Positions 53,156 to 64,000 of a stretch of 64,000 nucleotides of DNA are shown here, piece by piece. Positions within the stretch are counted from its first letter, which is position 1; each line of letters begins with the position of its first letter. Below the pieces are notes generated by a model. It had not been told where the DNA came from, did not search any database, and was given only the letters and a program-made list of their open reading frames with translations. Both the position numbers and the translations under genes were made by a program. The DNA lies in contig JALGYY010000035.1 in assembly GCA_025782575.1 (NCBI GenBank), forward strand, positions 466,670 through 530,669, given 5' to 3'. The stretch comes from a bacterium (GTDB lineage: Bacteria > Orphanbacterota > Orphanbacteria > Orphanbacterales > Orphanbacteraceae).

Positions 53156-53586
53156 TCTTCATTCCCATCTCAAATTTGCGACAGCGAGGGCAAAGCCTAC
53201 ACGGTTTCGGAGCGCATCTCCCAAAGGGGTAGGCTGCGCTCGGTGGCCCAAATCTCACAGGTCCATCGTTCCTATGGGGATCGGACTGGGGTCCGTCGCT
53301 TCTTCGCGAAGCCCCCCCACTTTACCCGCACGTCGGTTATGGTTTCTCATGCGAACGAAGAGGGATTCGTCCAGTTGACCCCGGTTTTCATCTCCAGAGG
53401 ACCGTGCGATGGTTACCCTATGGCCGCGGTTCTCTCTGGACTGGAATTGCGCTCACGTTGTGATAGGGGTGAGGCTTAGAAAAGACCTAATGATCTTGCT
53501 CGCTAATCCCTGGTCCTCTTGACGATTACCTGTACGCGGATGGCCAATCTCTGATGGATGAACCTGCAGGCAATTCAGGCCCACTT
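53156..53586. other. Gap with no recognisable gene
   Basis: Only short open frames without family signals. One 31-base segment (53370-53400, TCCAGTTGACCCCGG then CTCCAGAGG) recurs in altered form at 54692-54727. The next 250 bases carry regulatory sites listed separately. Confidence 0.5.
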
Positions 53587-53635
53587 GCGCGATATCGCGC
53601 ATCTCATCACACCCGGAAGGCGCGATAACGCACAA
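53587..53635 (+). promoter_or_regulatory. Pair of palindromic activator sites (candidate enhancer)
   Basis: TGCGCGATATCGCGCA at 53587-53602 is a perfect 16-bp palindrome. GGCGCGATAACGCACA at 53620-53635 matches it at 13 of 16 positions, 33 bases further on. The pair lies about 130-180 bases before a -24/-12 promoter, as is usual for NtrC-family sites. A similar pair occurs before the gene at 60052. I infer binding by the regulator encoded at 56677-58101. Confidence 0.72.
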
Positions 53636-53767
53636 GCCGGCTACCCGCCAGCTTCGATCGCTCGATTGTCGGCCCGCCCTTCGGATCTCGTAACCATTAC
53701 GTGAATCTCCGAAATGGGTTGGCATTTGCGAAGTGAGGCCCCGAGAGAGGGGCAGGAATTGCCGGCG

Positions 53768-53783
53768 TGGCCTCCTTCTTGCA
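53768..53783 (+). promoter_or_regulatory. Sigma54 (-24/-12) promoter of the pentahaem cytochrome gene
   Basis: TGGCCTCCTTCTTGCA has the GG and GC dinucleotides at exactly the required spacing (consensus TGGCAYGNNNNTTGCW). The start would be near 53793, about 38 bases before the ATG. The purine-rich GAGGAG precedes the start codon. Confidence 0.78.
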
Positions 53784-53830
53784 ACTGACTGCTTGGCCAC
53801 CCTGCACCTCCCCGGCCTGAGGAGTAAGAA

Positions 53831-54469
53831 ATGAGCTGGATCAACACCATACGCACAACATCAGTCTTGGTCGGTTTCCTCACTCTTCCTGCTTTCCCCG
53901 CGTTCGCTCAGATCACAGGCTCTTCTCACGATTTCTTGGGGGCGGCGTGGAACACGACCGGTGAAAACTGTGTAGTCTGCCACGTTCCTCACGACGGTAA
54001 TAGCCACCTGGGAGATGTGGGTTTGCTCTGGAACCACGAGCTGTCAATGGCGAACTACGAACTCTACTCGGGGTTCGATCTTGAGAATGATCCCATGCAA
54101 CCACAGGCAGCTTCCAAGATATGCTTGGGTTGCCACGATGGGACCATCGGTCTGGATTCGTTCGGCCCGAACAGCGGAACCGTTTTTATCGAGGAAGGAG
54201 GGCTGCTTGGAACCGATCTTTCGGCTACCCATCCTATCAGCATCCAGTTCTCACACGATGACGCTCCGAGCAGTTGCAGTAATTGTCACGCTCCGCACGG
54301 GGGAGGGCCCTCGCTTTCCGGGGGCCCTCTGCCCTTCTTTGAGGGCCGGTTGGAGTGCCCGACTTGTCACGATCCGCACAATGCAATGCCCTTGAATCCG
54401 GGTGGGGTGAACATGTTGCGCTTGGACAACTCGACATCAGAACTCTGTTTCCACTGCCATGACAAGTGA
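53831..54469 (+). CDS. Periplasmic pentahaem cytochrome c
   Basis: 212 residues. Signal peptide (hydrophobic 10-22, cleavage after AFA). Five CxxCH haem motifs at residues 47 (CVVCH), 98 (CLGCH), 139 (CSNCH), 166 (CPTCH) and 206 (CFHCH); doubled-CxxCH type repeats with nearby PH(D/G/N) pairs. It has no lipobox and is probably soluble in the periplasm. It is a paralogue of the tetrahaem protein at 60052: both have S(S/P)HDF, LLW(N/D)H, CLGCHDGT(I/V)GLD, THP and a CHDK end. Likely an electron carrier expressed from sigma54. Redox partner unknown. Confidence 0.9.
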   Translation: MSWINTIRTTSVLVGFLTLPAFPAFAQITGSSHDFLGAAWNTTGENCVVCHVPHDGNSHLGDVGLLWNHELSMANYELYSGFDLENDPMQPQAASKICLGCHDGTIGLDSFGPNSGTVFIEEGGLLGTDLSATHPISIQFSHDDAPSSCSNCHAPHGGGPSLSGGPLPFFEGRLECPTCHDPHNAMPLNPGGVNMLRLDNSTSELCFHCHDK

Positions 54470-56522: not shown

Positions 56523-56676
56523 AACCTGAACCGAATATCATCAACGCAGGATTCATGAAGGCCGATCCCCGTAATTCCTGTTATCCTATAATCGGGAGTA
56601 TTGGTGTGTCATAGCATGTTCGGGTATGAGTTGCCACCAGTGCGGAGAAAGTAACACCGGATTCGGGGGGCAGCCT

Positions 56677-58101
56677 GTGAGGAAGAGTGAAGATCCGCCG
56701 ACTGACATAGTTGTCGTCGATGACGAGCATCTTGTCCGCTGGGGTCTGGCGAACCGGCTGCGAAGGCTCGGTTTCTCAGTGGAAATGTTCCCCTCCGCTG
56801 AAGAGGCACTTGACCATCTGGCGGCGCTCGGGGCCCGTCTCGTTCTGCTCGATATCAAGCTTCCCGGAATGGACGGAATGGAATGTCTCCGACAGATCCG
56901 GGAGAAGTACTACAACACCACCGTCATCATGATGACAGGTCACGGATCGATTGAGTCATCGGTCGAAGCGATGCGTACCGGTGCGCACAATTATGTCACC
57001 AAACCATTTGATTTCGCCCCTCTCGCTGCAATGGTTCGATCCGTACTGCTTGGAGATTGTACTGAATCCACAGCTCCCACCCCGGCTGATACAGCTCCTC
57101 GTGCGAATCACCACGCTGAGGCGACAGCAGACTCCGGAGCCCCCGAGTTTGAAGGTGACCTTGTGGGCCGCTCCCCTGCGATGGCTCAGATCCGCGCTCT
57201 CGCACTGAAACTTGCACGGAGCAAGGCGAGAACGATTCTGCTCACAGGTGAGAGTGGTACAGGAAAGGACCATGTAGCACGCTTCATCCACTACCAAAGC
57301 CATCGTGCCCATAGACCGCTCATATCGATCAACGTAGCCGCGGTCCCCGCCGCTCTCTTCGAAAGCGAACTCTTCGGGCACGAACGTGGCAGCTTTACCG
57401 ACGCAAAAGGGCGGAAGAAAGGCCTGCTGGAAATGGCGGAAGGGGGATCGGTTTACCTCGATGAAATTGGTGAGCTTGCCCCCGAGCTACAGGTAAACCT
57501 CCTCCGCTTTCTCGAGGGGCGGACATTCAAACGACTTGGTGGCGTCGAGGAGATTCAGACGGACATCCGAGTCATCGCAGCAACGAATGCCGATCTCAGG
57601 GCCAAAGTACTTTCTGGCACGTTTCGCCAGGATCTGTATTACCGCCTCCGGGTTATCCCCATGCACCTTCCGGCACTTCGAGACCGAGGTGACGACGTCC
57701 TGGAGCTGGCCGACCACTTCCTGAAGGAATATAGTGCAGAATTCGGCTGTGACTTCAGCAGCTTCTCACCGGCTGCGCGAAGTAAGCTCGGTTCTCACAC
57801 TTGGCCAGGCAACGTCCGGGAACTGCGAAACGCTATTGAGCGGGCCATAGTTCTCGAAGAAGGAAACATCGTCGAGCCATCAATGATCAAGTTCGACGAT
57901 GTGGTGAACTTGGAACCGGGTAATCCGCCGGAGGACGAGGGCCCCCCCGCCGGGGGTTCAGCAAGTATGGAAGAGATTGAACGTAAGGTAATTGTTTCCG
58001 CTCTTGAGCGTGTCGGCTGGAATCAAGTGAAAGCCGCCGAAGCACTCGGCCTCGGACGGGATGCTCTCCGCTACAGGATGAAGAAACACGGACTCATCTG
58101 A
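56677..58101 (+). CDS. NtrC-family sigma54-dependent response regulator
   Basis: A cytoplasmic enhancer-binding protein. The GTG at 56677 has GGGGG upstream; an ATG at 56626 would add 17 residues (MSCHQCGES...) but has no ribosome site. Numbered from that ATG: receiver domain with acidic pair D32-D33, phospho-acceptor D76 (LLDIKLPG) and K126; AAA+ domain with Walker A GESGTGKD at 208-215, sigma54 loop GSFTDA at 255-260 (consensus GAFTGA), Walker B GGSVYLDE at 273-280; C-terminal Fis-type helix-turn-helix (AAEALGLGRDALRYRMK). It is convergent with the haem-sensor kinase, its likely partner. TATAAT at 56587 is a possible -10. Confidence 0.92.
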   Translation: MRKSEDPPTDIVVVDDEHLVRWGLANRLRRLGFSVEMFPSAEEALDHLAALGARLVLLDIKLPGMDGMECLRQIREKYYNTTVIMMTGHGSIESSVEAMRTGAHNYVTKPFDFAPLAAMVRSVLLGDCTESTAPTPADTAPRANHHAEATADSGAPEFEGDLVGRSPAMAQIRALALKLARSKARTILLTGESGTGKDHVARFIHYQSHRAHRPLISINVAAVPAALFESELFGHERGSFTDAKGRKKGLLEMAEGGSVYLDEIGELAPELQVNLLRFLEGRTFKRLGGVEEIQTDIRVIAATNADLRAKVLSGTFRQDLYYRLRVIPMHLPALRDRGDDVLELADHFLKEYSAEFGCDFSSFSPAARSKLGSHTWPGNVRELRNAIERAIVLEEGNIVEPSMIKFDDVVNLEPGNPPEDEGPPAGGSASMEEIERKVIVSALERVGWNQVKAAEALGLGRDALRYRMKKHGLI

Positions 58102-58111
58102 TCAAGTCGAA

Positions 58112-59671
58112 TCATTGCAGCGAAAAGTCCGGATAAGCCCCCGGTTCGTCATGAACCGCTCCAGGGATTACGAATCGAAATGTAGTGCCATCCGGTCCCG
58201 TCTCGCTAACCTCGAGAGTTCCATTGTGCCGCGCCAAAATGGCCAAAGAGACAGCCAGACCGAGACCGGTTCCCTTCGTCCGGGTCGTATAGAATGCTTC
58301 GAAGATGTTGGGAAGCGCTACTTTGGGAATGCCGGGGCCCGAATCCCTCACAAGAATCTCCGCCTCCCCCCACTCTGTCTTTTGGGTAGAAATGGCGATC
58401 ATCCCGGGAGTCTCCATAGCCTGAACCGCGTTTAAAATGATATTCAGAATCGCCTGCCCGATCTGATCCCGATCGACGCTTACAGAGGGAACATCATCAT
58501 CTGGCGTGTACTCGAGCCGATGCGCTCCCGAAACGGCAGATTGCTGGCAGAATCGAATCAGGGGACCGAGGACATCGTCGATATCGCAGACAGCCAGCTC
58601 CGGAGCGCTCGGTCTTGCAAATGAGAGGATATCGGATACGGTCCTGTCGATGCGGTGAACCTGATTCCTAGCCTCTTCAAGTATTTCGCGGTCCGGGCTT
58701 TCGGGAGGCAAGTCCTCGTACAGGACGGATAGCACTCCCTCCAGACCAGCAAGAGGATTGCGGATTTCGTGAGCGAGTCGGGACGCCATTTCTCCCACAT
58801 TCACCATTTTTTCCGCCCGCTGCATCAGCTTCACATTGGCGTCACGTAGTTTTTGATCAGTCTCTTCCAGTCGTCCTACCATCGCGTTGTAGCGCTCGCC
58901 GAGGAGTCCGATTTCATCTCGACTTTCGGGAATGTAGCGGGCGGAGAGTTCCCCTCCCATGACTCGTGCCATCGATCCTGCAATCTCTCCCAGAGGACGG
59001 CGAACATGGAGCGAGACAAGCAGCCAGACTGTTCCCCCGAACAGAAGGGTCAGCACTGTCGCCGTGACAAAACCCACCAGGCGAATAGTCCCTTCCGTCG
59101 CGTGAATCGTCGACGTCGGCATCCCGAGAAGTATCCAGCCTCGGGCATCAAGGTCATCTTCATGGCATTGTCTGCACGACATCTGGTTTTCCACAGGTAG
59201 GACCGATGCCAGCCACTGGTCGTCCTCAATCATGAACCCCGAAAACTGTTTAAACTCGTTCCTCTCCGCTAACCGTGCAGGAGGGGGAATGGTCGGCCTT
59301 TCCTCCTGAGTCAGGATACCGGCCCGGTAGATCGCTCGCCCTCCAAGATCAAGCACGGCTCCACCGAAACCTTCCGGCTGTCCGCAATTGTCGAATGCTT
59401 CCTGAAACACGGAATGAAGCTCGTCCTTAGCGTGGTCGCCCACGGAAAGCTCCTCGAGGAGGGCGGTTCTCAAGGTCCGTGATCCGAGCAGGAGAACGTT
59501 TCGATTCTGCTGGAGATAGGATTGACGGGTGGCGTTCAATACAACGCGCGTCTGGAATGCGATCAGGAAGAGGAGCCCGACAAACACGGGAATGAACAGT
59601 TTCAGCTGCAAGGAGTGACGAAGCGGCACCCATCCCGGAAGACCGGAACGCCCAGTCGGCTGCTCGCTCAA
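58112..59671 (-). CDS. Sensor histidine kinase with a c-type haem site in its periplasmic domain
   Basis: 519 residues with a TTG start 7 bases after GAGGAG. Membrane helices at 23-39 and about 197-220 enclose a periplasmic domain of about 155 residues containing the haem c motif CRQCH (C166, C169, H170). Then come HAMP (221-275), HisKA with phospho-acceptor H301 (RLAHEIRNPLAGL), and HATPase with N box (NIILNAVQAM), DSGPGIP and GTGLGLAV. The conserved motifs needed for kinase activity are present. Haem c sensor kinases are known in Geobacter (GSU0582/GSU0935 type for chemotaxis and kinase sensors). It probably senses redox potential or a small gas and signals to the regulator whose stop lies 10 bases away. 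Confidence 0.93.
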   Translation of the reverse strand: MSEQPTGRSGLPGWVPLRHSLQLKLFIPVFVGLLFLIAFQTRVVLNATRQSYLQQNRNVLLLGSRTLRTALLEELSVGDHAKDELHSVFQEAFDNCGQPEGFGGAVLDLGGRAIYRAGILTQEERPTIPPPARLAERNEFKQFSGFMIEDDQWLASVLPVENQMSCRQCHEDDLDARGWILLGMPTSTIHATEGTIRLVGFVTATVLTLLFGGTVWLLVSLHVRRPLGEIAGSMARVMGGELSARYIPESRDEIGLLGERYNAMVGRLEETDQKLRDANVKLMQRAEKMVNVGEMASRLAHEIRNPLAGLEGVLSVLYEDLPPESPDREILEEARNQVHRIDRTVSDILSFARPSAPELAVCDIDDVLGPLIRFCQQSAVSGAHRLEYTPDDDVPSVSVDRDQIGQAILNIILNAVQAMETPGMIAISTQKTEWGEAEILVRDSGPGIPKVALPNIFEAFYTTRTKGTGLGLAVSLAILARHNGTLEVSETGPDGTTFRFVIPGAVHDEPGAYPDFSLQ

Positions 59672-59802: not shown

Positions 59803-59848
59803 TGTGCCATATCACGCAGGGAAAACCCAGAATGCGTGCTATGGCGCG
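59803..59848 (+). promoter_or_regulatory. Pair of activator sites before the tetrahaem cytochrome gene
   Basis: TGTGCCATATCACGCA (59803-59818) matches the palindrome TGCGCGATATCGCGCA at 13 of 16 positions. TGCGTGCTATGGCGCG (59833-59848) matches at 12 of 16. They are 30 bases apart, about three helical turns, and lie about 95-140 bases before a -24/-12 promoter, with the same layout as at 53587. Confidence 0.7.
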
Positions 59849-59940
59849 AGGCTCTTGAAGTATTCAGGCGACGATACTGGACAGGAACCGTATTGCATTG
59901 AAATCAAATCACTTAGACGTATTTCGATTCGGCGGATCGT

Positions 59941-59956
59941 TGGCATGCCTCATGCA
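59941..59956 (+). promoter_or_regulatory. Sigma54 (-24/-12) promoter of the tetrahaem cytochrome cluster
   Basis: TGGCATGCCTCATGCA fits the consensus TGGCAYGNNNNTTGCW at every defined position except one T. The start would be near 59967, about 85 bases before the ATG at 60052. Confidence 0.82.
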
Positions 59957-60051: not shown

Positions 60052-60750
60052 ATGAATCGGTGCCTACTGGGAATCGCAGCACTTGCTCTTCTGATTTCCG
60101 CCCCCATGGTTCTGGCCAATGGGGACGGTGGCGGTGTTGCAGGATCTCCTCACGATTTCTCAGGTGAAGCGTGGAACCACCGCGGAGAACTCTGCCGTGT
60201 ATGCCACATTCCCCACGATCACAATCGCAATGTCTCCCTCGGTGCATTGGGTCTCCTCTGGGATCACCAGGTGAGCAACGTGTCGTATCTGATGTATGCT
60301 GAAGATACTCACATCGAATTCATCGATGGCGCCGCTGATGCCGAACCGACCGGAACGACCAAGATGTGCCTTGGTTGCCACGATGGTACAGTCGGGCTTG
60401 ATCAGTTTGATAACAAAGCCGATGTTGCCGGTACGGTGTTCATCCAGGATGACCACCCCGGCTTCCAGGTCCCGGGCGCTTCGCTGCCCGGCGACCTAAG
60501 CAACACTCACCCGCTGGGCGTCGTTTACGATGCCGTCGCGGATGGTGGACTTCACCCGGTCACGAACGCGATGGGCGCTTCCGGCACGATTGATGACGTG
60601 CTTGAAAGGGGCCGCATTGCCTGCGCCTCGTGCCATGACGTACATGACTCACCCGGTGAGTCGGTCCCGAGCACACATCTTCTTCGGGTGGCAAACAATA
60701 CCGCTACCGGTACTGCCTCAGGCCTCTGCCTGACCTGCCACGACAAGTAG
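60052..60750 (+). CDS. Periplasmic tetrahaem cytochrome c
   Basis: 232 residues. Signal peptide (hydrophobic 4-18, cleavage after LAN or VLA). CxxCH motifs at 48 (CRVCH), 106 (CLGCH), 191 (CASCH) and 226 (CLTCH). Compared with its paralogue at 53831 one haem of the middle CSNCH/CPTCH pair is lost and a loop of about 40 residues is inserted. It heads the cluster with the NHL lipoprotein, the pentahaem lipoprotein and the beta-barrel, which suggests it brings electrons across the periplasm. A strong hairpin after the stop may lower expression of the downstream genes. Confidence 0.9.
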   Translation: MNRCLLGIAALALLISAPMVLANGDGGGVAGSPHDFSGEAWNHRGELCRVCHIPHDHNRNVSLGALGLLWDHQVSNVSYLMYAEDTHIEFIDGAADAEPTGTTKMCLGCHDGTVGLDQFDNKADVAGTVFIQDDHPGFQVPGASLPGDLSNTHPLGVVYDAVADGGLHPVTNAMGASGTIDDVLERGRIACASCHDVHDSPGESVPSTHLLRVANNTATGTASGLCLTCHDK

Positions 60751-60764
60751 ACTGCTGTTCTGTA

Positions 60765-60800
60765 ACGTCCGGTCCGGCATTGCCGGGCCGGACGTTTCTC
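60765..60800 (+). terminator. Strong hairpin between the tetrahaem gene and the NHL gene
   Basis: ACGTCCGGTCCGGC (60765-60778) pairs with GCCGGGCCGGACGT (60782-60795) in a 14-bp stem with one G-T pair and a 3-base loop, followed by TTTCTCC. It is a likely partial or full terminator, giving more cytochrome than downstream proteins. Confidence 0.75.
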
Positions 60801-60839
60801 CAAACGGGTAGCCGATACTCACCGGGCATGGAGGTTCCA

Positions 60840-62093
60840 ATGAACTCGCATGCATGCCCGGGGGGGCGCTACCTTTCCCCCTCTAGAAATTTTCTGATCT
60901 TCCTCGTAGTATTGGCGTCACTCCCCTTTATCGGTTGCGCCGGCACCGTACCTCCTGTCGTTGACGTCTTCTATCCCGCTGCACCGGACACCGCTCGTTA
61001 TCAGTTTCTGACCCGCATCGAGACGAGCGCAGACATCGAGGAACAGTCCTGGTTCAATCGAATGGTCGTTGGTGAATCACCGGATCGACGATTCGGGAAA
61101 CCGTACGGCGTCACAGTGGTCGGTTCACAGGTTTTCGTCGGTGATGCGCAGCTCAAAGCCGTTGCCCGAATCGATTTCGATTCAGGCGAGCTGAGTGCAT
61201 TCAGTGCGGCAGGAGCCAAGAAATTCCAATCGGTCATCAACGTCGAACACGATGAAGCGGGCAATATCTACGTATCCGATCCGATCGGAGGCTTCATCAT
61301 AGTCATGACACCGGATGGGGAACTCGTCAGGAGCTATGGCGACGACATGGAGATCTCGCCGACCGATGTAGCGGTCGGCCCCGATATCCTCTTCGTTGTG
61401 GATAGAAACAGCAAGTCAGTAGTCATGATTGACCGTGAAAGCGGCGAATCCCTGGGCAAAGTCAATGCTTCTGCCGATTCGATCGGTTTCGTGGCTCCCA
61501 CAAACATCTGCATCGGGCCGGACGGTACGCTTTATGTTGTCGATACTGTGATGTGCCGTATACTTCACTTCGATGGGGAGGGAAACTTCCTGAACGCGTT
61601 CGGGCAGCAGGGGTTTTATCCAGGCGAATTTGCGCGCCCCAAAGGGATCACCGTCGAACGTGACGGCCGCATACTCGTTGTAGACGCCGCATTCGAGAAT
61701 GTCCAGGTGCTGGACTCGCTGGGAAGAGTCTTCACTTACATCGGTGGGCCCGGTCAGAAACCAGGGTCCATGTGGCTGCCGGCAGGAATTGCCCTCGGTC
61801 CCAGCCTCATCCCCTATCTGGAACGCTATTCCCACAATGGTGCAGATGTCTCCAATGTGATTGTTGTTGCGAGCCAGTTCGGCCCTCCTCGAATTGATTT
61901 TTACGGCCGAATCTCCAACGTGCAGGAATTCGCCCAGGCCTATCCACCTGACAAGAGGCGTAGTGAGAGGTCTACAGGTACGCTTCCGGATGGCGAGAGA
62001 CCTGATGATGTGACGGGAGCAAACCTGGACGCGGCGGGCGAAGATGAAGAGCCCAGCCCATCGCCCGCAGACACTGAATCAGCACCGAGGTAG
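60840..62093 (+). CDS. NHL-repeat lipoprotein
   Basis: 417 residues from MNSHACPGGRYLSPSRN; GGAGG lies upstream of the ATG at 60840. A lipobox is present (LASLPFIGCAG), so it is membrane-anchored. About six NHL-type propeller repeats follow (GKPYGVTVVGSQVFVGD, NIYVSDPIGGFIIV, DVAVGPDILFVVDR, GTLYVVDTVMCRILHFDGEGN, GILVVDAAFENVQVLD-like). The last 60 residues are low-complexity Asp/Glu/Pro/Ser. NHL proteins recur in multihaem cytochrome clusters of metal-reducing bacteria. It probably scaffolds cytochromes; no catalytic residues are seen. Confidence 0.87.
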   Translation: MNSHACPGGRYLSPSRNFLIFLVVLASLPFIGCAGTVPPVVDVFYPAAPDTARYQFLTRIETSADIEEQSWFNRMVVGESPDRRFGKPYGVTVVGSQVFVGDAQLKAVARIDFDSGELSAFSAAGAKKFQSVINVEHDEAGNIYVSDPIGGFIIVMTPDGELVRSYGDDMEISPTDVAVGPDILFVVDRNSKSVVMIDRESGESLGKVNASADSIGFVAPTNICIGPDGTLYVVDTVMCRILHFDGEGNFLNAFGQQGFYPGEFARPKGITVERDGRILVVDAAFENVQVLDSLGRVFTYIGGPGQKPGSMWLPAGIALGPSLIPYLERYSHNGADVSNVIVVASQFGPPRIDFYGRISNVQEFAQAYPPDKRRSERSTGTLPDGERPDDVTGANLDAAGEDEEPSPSPADTESAPR

Positions 62094-62148
62094 GTCGTCC
62101 TTGGGTCGTTTGAGCAAAAGGAACTGGATTCCAGAGGGGCCAGTGGTG

Positions 62149-62745
62149 ATGCCATTCGTCACAGCGATTCTGGTCACCCTGTTTCTGGCCTGCAGCGCAA
62201 GTACGAGGCATCGCGTGATTTCCACCCTCTTTGACGGCGTTCCCCCCCTTGATACGGCGGGTGCGCAGACTATTGTCGATACACTTTCTACCGAGGTTGC
62301 TTCCCCTGTCACCGAGCGGTCCACTTTCGAGGGAGTCTCGTATACACTCCACGCACCCTACGAAGAAAAAATGTGTACTGAGTGCCATCTGCTCGAAGGA
62401 ACAGGAGCGTTCGGAAAGAGCGTTCGGTTGCGAGTTCCCATGAACGAGCTATGCATGGAATGTCACGACGACATGTCGATCGACGAACTGCGTAACACTT
62501 ACGACTGGATACATGGTCCGGTGGCTGCCGGGGCATGCACAGGCTGTCACAGTCCTCACACGGCGCTCTATCCCGCTCTTCTCCTCGCGGAACCGGGAAG
62601 GCCTCTCTGCATTCGTTGCCACGATGAGAACCGGCTGGCGGAGCAGGAGATTCATGAGGACAGTCAGATGAACTGTCTGACCTGTCATGCCGCCCATGGA
62701 GCCGACGCGATCGCCTTCAACATGGCAGAAACGGTGGACGAGTGA
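62149..62745 (+). CDS. Pentahaem cytochrome c lipoprotein
   Basis: 198 residues from MPFVTAILVTLFLACSAS; C15 fits a lipobox. Five CxxCH motifs at 76 (CTECH), 102 (CMECH), 120 (CTGCH), 144 (CIRCH) and 166 (CLTCH) in doubled-CxxCH repeats. The compact spacing resembles small cytochromes that can fill a beta-barrel. GAGGGG lies upstream of the ATG. Its stop overlaps the start of the barrel gene by 1 base (TGATG), tying the two products closely. Confidence 0.9.
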   Translation: MPFVTAILVTLFLACSASTRHRVISTLFDGVPPLDTAGAQTIVDTLSTEVASPVTERSTFEGVSYTLHAPYEEKMCTECHLLEGTGAFGKSVRLRVPMNELCMECHDDMSIDELRNTYDWIHGPVAAGACTGCHSPHTALYPALLLAEPGRPLCIRCHDENRLAEQEIHEDSQMNCLTCHAAHGADAIAFNMAETVDE

Positions 62746-64000
62746 TGAGCCGGCCGGTTTACATCAAGCGACCTCATCTGCACCGGCTCATGCTCGCAGC
62801 TGTTGTCGTTCTGTTCACCATACCGGCCGGACGATCCGAAGCCGCTCGCTCCGGTTCGGGGCAGATTCAACTCCTCCGCCTGAGCCGCTGGACTGGCAAC
62901 CTGTCCATGGAAGCGGGCATTGCCGACTACAAAGTCGACCGTGACGGTCGGATCAGAGAAGAATCGAGGAATCTTTTCGCCCCCGGTCTCCAGCTTGCAA
63001 ATCGTGGATTTATCTATCACCCCCGGCTCGTCACGTTCAATGTGTCGGGTGATCTTGCCTGGTCCAGGCTGCGGGAATCCGAAAACTTCACCGGCTTCGA
63101 CCAGCGTACCAATAGCTGGCTCAATTCCTACTCGATGCGCTTTGCTTTTCTGCAGAAACGCCGATTCCATTTCGATTTTCAGCAGGACCGGCAACACAGC
63201 AGAGTGCGCGTTACTGATACGAGGAACACGAACGTGCTCGACCGAAAGCAGGTCCTATCCGCCTTCTGGCGCCAAGGGACCATACCCGTCGAATTCCGGA
63301 GAGAGACCGGTGTTCGTAGTACGACCGGACTCATTTCCTCCAAAGAGACCCGCAACGTCTCACGTATCCTGAGCCGCTACGCAAAGAGCCGCACACACGT
63401 TGGAGAGGTCAGCCTCAGACGGTCGCGAATCGAAAACAAGGACTATGACTACTTTAATACCCGATACGAGGCACATGTAGACGAGCGATTCATTCGCCCG
63501 AATTGGATGGGAGGGGCCCGGCTCCGTTGGTGGCGACTTGACACGCAAAATGATCGTACGGAATCGACCCGCGGTTCGGTCAGCGCCCGACGGGATCTGA
63601 TCTATGGGTTCCGGACGAGCGGTAACATTGAGGCCGAACGCTACAGAGGGAGTGCCACTCGGGAGGATCGGATTGACGGTCGCGCCTCTCTCGCTCACCA
63701 GCTCTATTCGAGTCTTGATACGGAGCTATCATTGCAGCTCGCAAGGTCAACACCGGTCGATGGAAGATTGCGCACGATTGACGGCAGATTCGAAACACGG
63801 TATCGGAAACGGATCCCCTATGGACGGCTCAATATAGCGGGATCGATTCGACGACTTGACAGGGATACAAATGCAGACGATGTCGAAGTGACTGTTGTGG
63901 AGCTGGTAATTCGATTCGGCCAGGCGGATGACTTCCTGTTCGAGGAAGCGGATATCATCACCGGCTCCGTCAGTCTTCTTGACTCGACCGGTACGATCGT
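62745..64000 (+). CDS. Large outer-membrane beta-barrel protein, 3' end outside window
   Basis: 418 codons are visible and the frame is still open at 64000. The start ATG is within TGATG. A signal peptide (residues about 13-32, cleavage after EAA or nearby) is followed by alternating short strands with many Arg, Asp, Tyr and Trp (LVTFNVSGDLAWSRL, SYSMRFAFLQKRRFHFDFQQD, GGARLRWWRLDTQ, GRLNIAGSIRRLD), in the manner of a barrel of 20 or more strands. It resembles MtrB/PioB and OmbB-type conduit porins in pattern and context, but I cannot place it in a family. Directly coupled to the pentahaem lipoprotein. Confidence 0.75.
   Translation, partial: MSRPVYIKRPHLHRLMLAAVVVLFTIPAGRSEAARSGSGQIQLLRLSRWTGNLSMEAGIADYKVDRDGRIREESRNLFAPGLQLANRGFIYHPRLVTFNVSGDLAWSRLRESENFTGFDQRTNSWLNSYSMRFAFLQKRRFHFDFQQDRQHSRVRVTDTRNTNVLDRKQVLSAFWRQGTIPVEFRRETGVRSTTGLISSKETRNVSRILSRYAKSRTHVGEVSLRRSRIENKDYDYFNTRYEAHVDERFIRPNWMGGARLRWWRLDTQNDRTESTRGSVSARRDLIYGFRTSGNIEAERYRGSATREDRIDGRASLAHQLYSSLDTELSLQLARSTPVDGRLRTIDGRFETRYRKRIPYGRLNIAGSIRRLDRDTNADDVEVTVVELVIRFGQADDFLFEEADIITGSVSLLDSTGTI

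Follow-up and report, generated by a model that had tools for sequence, protein, structure and literature searches.

Paired palindromic sites upstream of two cytochrome promoters of the sigma54 type: candidate enhancers for a neighbouring NtrC-family regulator

The window, i.e., the whole 64-kb stretch of bacterial DNA that was analysed, contains two genes for multiheme cytochromes, each preceded by a pair of 16-bp palindromic sites (dyads) and a -24/-12 element (Table 1). Between the two promoters lie genes for an NtrC-family response regulator and a sensor histidine kinase with a CXXCH motif. Both genes were overlooked in an earlier reading of the DNA, made without database searches (the sequence-only reading), which dealt with the palindromes. 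The regulator and kinase genes (56626-59671) are convergent in the window, and in nearly all relatives read they are arranged in tandem on one strand.

The second cytochrome gene opens a cluster that extends beyond the end of the window. Farther downstream are a gene with eleven CXXCH motifs, a gene with nine CXXCH motifs, a CcsB gene, more cytochrome genes, and genes for cytochrome b and a Rieske protein; the names of the last two come from similarity and sequence character, not from a family search. The paired-CXXCH family PF09699 shows 11 matches in the genome, and 10 of them are within this one cluster. The large protein starting at 62742 is proposed to be an outer-membrane beta-barrel (porin), based on its sequence character and position. 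The gene content of the cluster resembles that of an outer-membrane electron conduit, and the cluster is predicted to function as such. The cytochrome b and Rieske proteins, encoded at 71747-73269 in extended window coordinates (locus L016, outside the window), are 62-69% identical to those of L127 and L129 from another class, while the remaining cluster proteins are about 20-45% identical to their counterparts at those two loci. The high identity can be read either as strong constraint or as lateral transfer.

Table 1. Positions of the genes, dyads, and promoter elements in the window.
Feature	Position	Strand	Remarks
Distal dyad, promoter 1	53586..53601	none	TGCGCGATATCGCGCA; 16/16 palindrome; rank 1 with the relatives-only matrix
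Proximal dyad, promoter 1	53619..53634	none	GGCGCGATAACGCACA; 13/16 identical to the 53586 dyad
Best -24/-12 element, promoter 1	53767..53783	+	GTGGCCTCCTTCTTGCA; score 15.0; 1% of region shuffles score as high
Multiheme cytochrome, target 1	53831..54469	+	5 CXXCH; paired CXXCH family
NtrC-family response regulator	56626..58101	+	PF00072 receiver, PF00158 sigma54 AAA+, PF02954 Fis-type HTH, in this order, all above cut-off
Sensor histidine kinase	58112..59671	-	CXXCH in periplasmic domain, HAMP, HisKA, HATPase
Distal dyad, promoter 2	59803..59818	none	TGTGCCATATCACGCA; 13/16 identical to the 53586 dyad; pair is rank 2
Proximal dyad, promoter 2	59833..59848	none	TGCGTGCTATGGCGCG; 12/16 identical to the 53586 dyad
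-24/-12 element, promoter 2	59940..59956	+	TTGGCATGCCTCATGCA; near perfect; score 16.5
Multiheme cytochrome, target 2	60052..60750	+	4 CXXCH; first gene of the downstream conduit-like cluster
NHL beta-propeller protein	60780..62093	+	conserved cluster member
Pentaheme cytochrome	62044..62745	+	5 CXXCH
Start of large protein, running beyond the window	62742..63998	+	weak similarity to ~650-aa proteins encoded at the corresponding position of related clusters

The start-to-start spacing of the dyads is 33 bp in the first pair and 30 bp in the second. The sequence-only reading had reported these four sites, their grouping into two pairs, their spacing, and their identities to the first copy, all of which were confirmed in the sequence; the start given for the first dyad, 53587, was one base late. 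A 115-aa reading frame at 53453-53800 on the minus strand extends over promoter 1 and both of its dyads and is probably spurious.

The window contains five matches with three or fewer mismatches to the perfect 53586 copy, against 0.49 expected, and the maximum in 100 shuffles was three. A gapped pattern describing the pair was found at exactly the two window places across the 4.88-Mb genome (49 contigs); the opposite strand had no match, nor did a reversed control give any. As this pattern was fitted to the two window pairs, its result indicates uniqueness, not significance. Both of these pairs are located in front of cytochrome genes.

When up to one mismatch to TGCGYSATATSRCGCA is allowed, the genome has three sites. 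Two are in the window, one per pair, and the third, TGCGCCATAAGGCGCA, is at C13:535041, which corresponds to window coordinate 68372, 4.4 kb beyond the window end. This third site is located between the nine-CXXCH gene and the CcsB-type gene (cytochrome maturation), in the same multiheme cluster, and is 138 bp before a -24/-12-like sequence, TTGGACCAAGCCTTGCT, facing the CcsB-type gene. A partner dyad was looked for beside it and none was found. Two-mismatch copies at other places in the genome are, among the matches listed, mostly within reading frames. Thus, the dyad regulon looks local rather than genome-wide. The expectation that a genome scan would find sites before other sigma54 promoters, especially those of cytochrome genes, is borne out by the third site, although not on a genome-wide scale.

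The position of both pairs upstream of -24/-12 elements, as claimed earlier, was corroborated. Between the proximal dyad centre and the 53767 element are 142 bp, and the -12 part of this element is about 49 bp before the ATG of the 53831 gene. A weaker alternative for the same promoter, ATGGGTTGGCATTTGCG, is found at 53714. At the second promoter, the distance between the proximal dyad centre (59833 site) and the element is 102 bp. For 17 promoters, the highest-scoring 17-mer in the interval from the dyads to the start codon was taken; the mean -24/-12 score was 15.0, against 11.5 in shuffles, and the highest mean in 100 shuffle runs was 12.1. In some relatives, the -12 part is TTGTA instead of TTGCA. 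The genome encodes sigma54 (Sigma54_DBD, E 8e-62).

The kinase was searched for in 386 genomes, 25 of which had matches, and in one further class, which gave 10; neighbourhoods of 5-20 kb were read. The dyads in the relatives are of the type TGnGnGATATCnCnCA and are usually 22 bp apart (two helical turns; range 19-24), while those of the window are 30-33 bp apart (about three turns). The sequence-only reading had proposed a cooperative NtrC-type activator on paired dyads three turns apart. An NtrC-family gene is indeed present between the promoters, but the three-turn spacing is not general, since most relatives have two turns (19-24 bp).

The pairs could be recovered in both directions. A matrix from this genome only detected pairs before cluster genes in other phyla: of 131 upstream regions, four reached a sum of at least 18 (0.1 in shuffles) and seven a sum of at least 16 (0.8 in shuffles). 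With a matrix from other phyla only, the two window pairs (29.8 and 26.6) took ranks 1 and 2 among all pairs in 81 kb, the next score being 16.1 and the best of 40 simulations 23.2. The same matrix performed more weakly on single sites, with the 59833 site at rank 24, indicating that the pairing carries the signal.

In a leave-one-out comparison, the pair scored above all 40 simulated loci at 16 of the 20 loci that have the kinase, the regulator, and multiheme cytochromes, against none of the nine loci with kinase and regulator but without multiheme cytochromes (Fisher p 7e-5). Two of the 16, L090 and L091, are absent from the matrix training set. The four cytochrome-bearing loci without a pair above chance are L052, L055, L081, and L124. 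The contig of L124 ends before the regulator gene is complete. At L055, a pair is visible but fails the threshold once L087, a relative of L055, is excluded from training. Six loci where the gene caller missed one or both regulators were kept outside this comparison. Two of these six, L094 and L096 (68-73% GC), likewise exceeded the simulations, and their pairs are inside reading frames.

In the class of genome G351, the pair is at or right after the stop codon of the regulator gene in all six fetched loci that continue past this gene. The five of them extending to the cytochrome have a -24/-12-like element 120-136 bp, mostly 126 bp, from the proximal dyad centre; at L098, the element at 126 bp is the second best of two candidates with similar scores. 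These loci are related and are therefore not independent. Within the phylum of the window, which comprises seven genomes, the kinase was found in no other genome at the threshold used. One genome of the same family (G001, contig C2, loci L050 and L051) has similar multiheme cytochrome and NHL genes; no kinase was recognised there at that threshold, and no convincing dyad pair was observed.

The kinase encoded at 58112-59671 is proposed to be a heme-c sensor. Its CXXCH motif is invariant in an alignment of 15 kinase sequences (A1) and is present in 29 of the 34 kinases listed. The profile of the sensor region hits two heme-c sensor domains, 3b42 (E 1.3e-10) and 3b47 (E 2.3e-9). PF21563 matched 12 of 15 kinases (best E 2.9e-6), and PF11845 matched three of 15, weakly (best E 0.005). 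A structural model of the sensor domain, of moderate confidence (pLDDT 76.6), shows Cache-like matches to WalK, DctB, and GSU0582 (3b47). Such domains are called sCache_heme in a 2026 preprint, where NO binding is reported for signalling-fused forms (PMC12889525). By analogy only, the signal of the kinase may be NO or redox.

The regulator encoded at 56626-58101 is proposed, from sequence comparisons, to be the binder of the dyads. Its recognition helix is GLGRDALRYRMKKHGLI. The sigma54-contact loop is GSFTDA, compared with the usual GAFTGA; the F and T are kept and there are two substitutions. The nearest named model is NCBIfam AtoC, to which the regulator scores 410 bits, below the equivalog cut-off of 714. 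Among 15 regulator/operator combinations, operator distance tracks HTH distance (Mantel r 0.65, p 2e-4). With AAA+ divergence controlled, which accounts for shared ancestry only partly, r is 0.54 (p 8e-4, n=15). Position 3 of the half-site is mostly G where the recognition helix has RDT. Among RDA regulators, those of the window and L093 have C at this position, and it is mostly C in some RDA cases. The two loci with RRRL-type regulators, L055 and L087, have T.

It is very unlikely that the dyads are instead operators of a CRP/FNR-family regulator controlling the same genes. CRP-type sites are 16-bp dyads of the form TGTGA-N6-TCACA, and CRP/FNR control is common for anaerobic cytochromes. The dyads share with them the length of 16 bp and the outer bases TG-G...C-CA. 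However, A is found at half-site position 5 in only three of 40 half sites, and TGnGA-N6-TCnCA is absent from both window promoters. The arrangement in tandem pairs about 100-140 bp before -24/-12 elements, beside an NtrC-type regulator whose HTH covaries with the sites, also argues against this family, and no gene for such a protein was recognised in the clusters in a non-exhaustive annotation.

The dyads could also bind the adjacent regulator and yet mainly serve repression, or autoregulation of the kinase gene, instead of activating the cytochrome genes at a distance. The 59803/59833 pair is in the divergent interval between the kinase gene and the cytochrome gene at 60052, and in the class of G351 the pair directly follows the regulator gene, which would fit such a role. 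No -24/-12 element faces the kinase gene (the best score, 11.5, equals background), whereas strong ones face the cytochromes, and the 53586/53619 pair adjoins neither regulator gene; we therefore regard a mainly repressive or autoregulatory role as very improbable. Chance similarity among functionless GC-rich intergenic palindromes is hardly credible at all: in a genome of 57% GC, it is not unusual to meet a two-sided palindrome at a single place, and some reading frames contain single copies that match loosely, but the cross-phylum recovery both ways, the covariation, and the genome-wide uniqueness of the pairs contradict it.

It is highly likely that the dyads are tandem enhancers of the regulator encoded at 56626-58101, which activates the cytochrome genes via sigma54; its binding to them we infer. 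The sequence, position, and conservation of the dyads, their adjacency to the regulator gene, and the covariation of HTH and operator support this reading. The heme-c kinase would switch the regulator, presumably by phosphorylation. Regulator dimers would occupy the two dyads of a pair on roughly one face of the DNA (33 and 30 bp, about three turns), and the bound regulator could assemble into an AAA+ hexamer. By looping of the DNA, the hexamer would then contact sigma54-RNA polymerase at the -24/-12 element, which is 100-140 bp farther downstream. The predicted targets are the cytochrome gene at 53831 and the operon from 60052 (cytochromes, NHL protein, and probable porin), with extracellular electron transfer as the probable function under control. 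The CcsB gene may be under a single-site version of the same control.

The paired sites with a sigma54 promoter are very probably a conserved switch for electron-export genes, because in other phyla, matching pairs occupy the equivalent place next to genes for the same sensor and regulator.

The mechanism is of a known kind, a group I enhancer-binding system similar to NtrC, AtoC, and DctD. In the DctBD system of rhizobia, tandem dyads of the TGTGCG type, upstream of the sigma54 promoter of dctA, are bound cooperatively. DctBD differs from the system in the window in that it controls C4-dicarboxylate uptake and has no heme sensor, and the likeness serves as a lead. GSU0582 and GSU0935, of the sCache_heme/Tll0287 family, have periplasmic heme-c sensor domains that the sensor domain of the window kinase resembles. 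They are chemoreceptors, while the domain in the window drives a histidine kinase instead. AtoC of AtoSC in E. coli binds two inverted 20-bp sites upstream of the sigma54 promoter of atoDAEB (PMC3118216). AtoSC thus shares with the window the nearest named regulator model and paired inverted sites before a sigma54 promoter, but it differs in the sensor of the kinase (heme c in the window), in the targets, and in the operator bases. In Desulfovibrio, DVU3142 is a sigma54 enhancer-binding regulator adjoining the ohc octaheme cytochrome operon, with predicted control of it, and TGT/ACA half-site motifs are reported as common among such regulators (PMC4641369). DVU3142/ohc is thus a predicted precedent for the control of a multiheme operon; the likeness is in the type of regulator and its position, and the cytochrome system is a different one. 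The RpoN regulon of Geobacter includes cytochromes for extracellular electron transfer (PMC2725144). No published description of the operator or the circuit was found in the open-access literature, and the operator, its regulon, and its cross-phylum conservation appear to be undescribed.

Outside the model metal reducers, how the building of multiheme conduits is controlled is poorly understood. In the window, the kinase and the regulator as well as the operator and the promoter are readable in the DNA. Together they form a circuit open to testing, and they offer a pattern with which to look for conduit regulons in uncultured phyla. We give roughly even chances to a wider proposal, in which the cassette of heme-c kinase, NtrC-type regulator, two-dyad operator, and sigma54 promoter has moved together with conduit clusters, or stayed next to them, across several phyla, while the operator and the recognition helix coevolved. 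Through the periplasmic heme, the cell would then respond to the redox state or to an electron acceptor (or NO) beyond the cytoplasm and directly adjust the expression of the conduit. The 15 regulator/operator combinations also constitute a small data set for reading the DNA specificity of the NtrC family. At L055 (12503-13231) and L087 (1171-1872), the NtrC-type regulator gene is followed by a gene for a second receiver protein without an HTH, which has its own -24/-12 element just before it.
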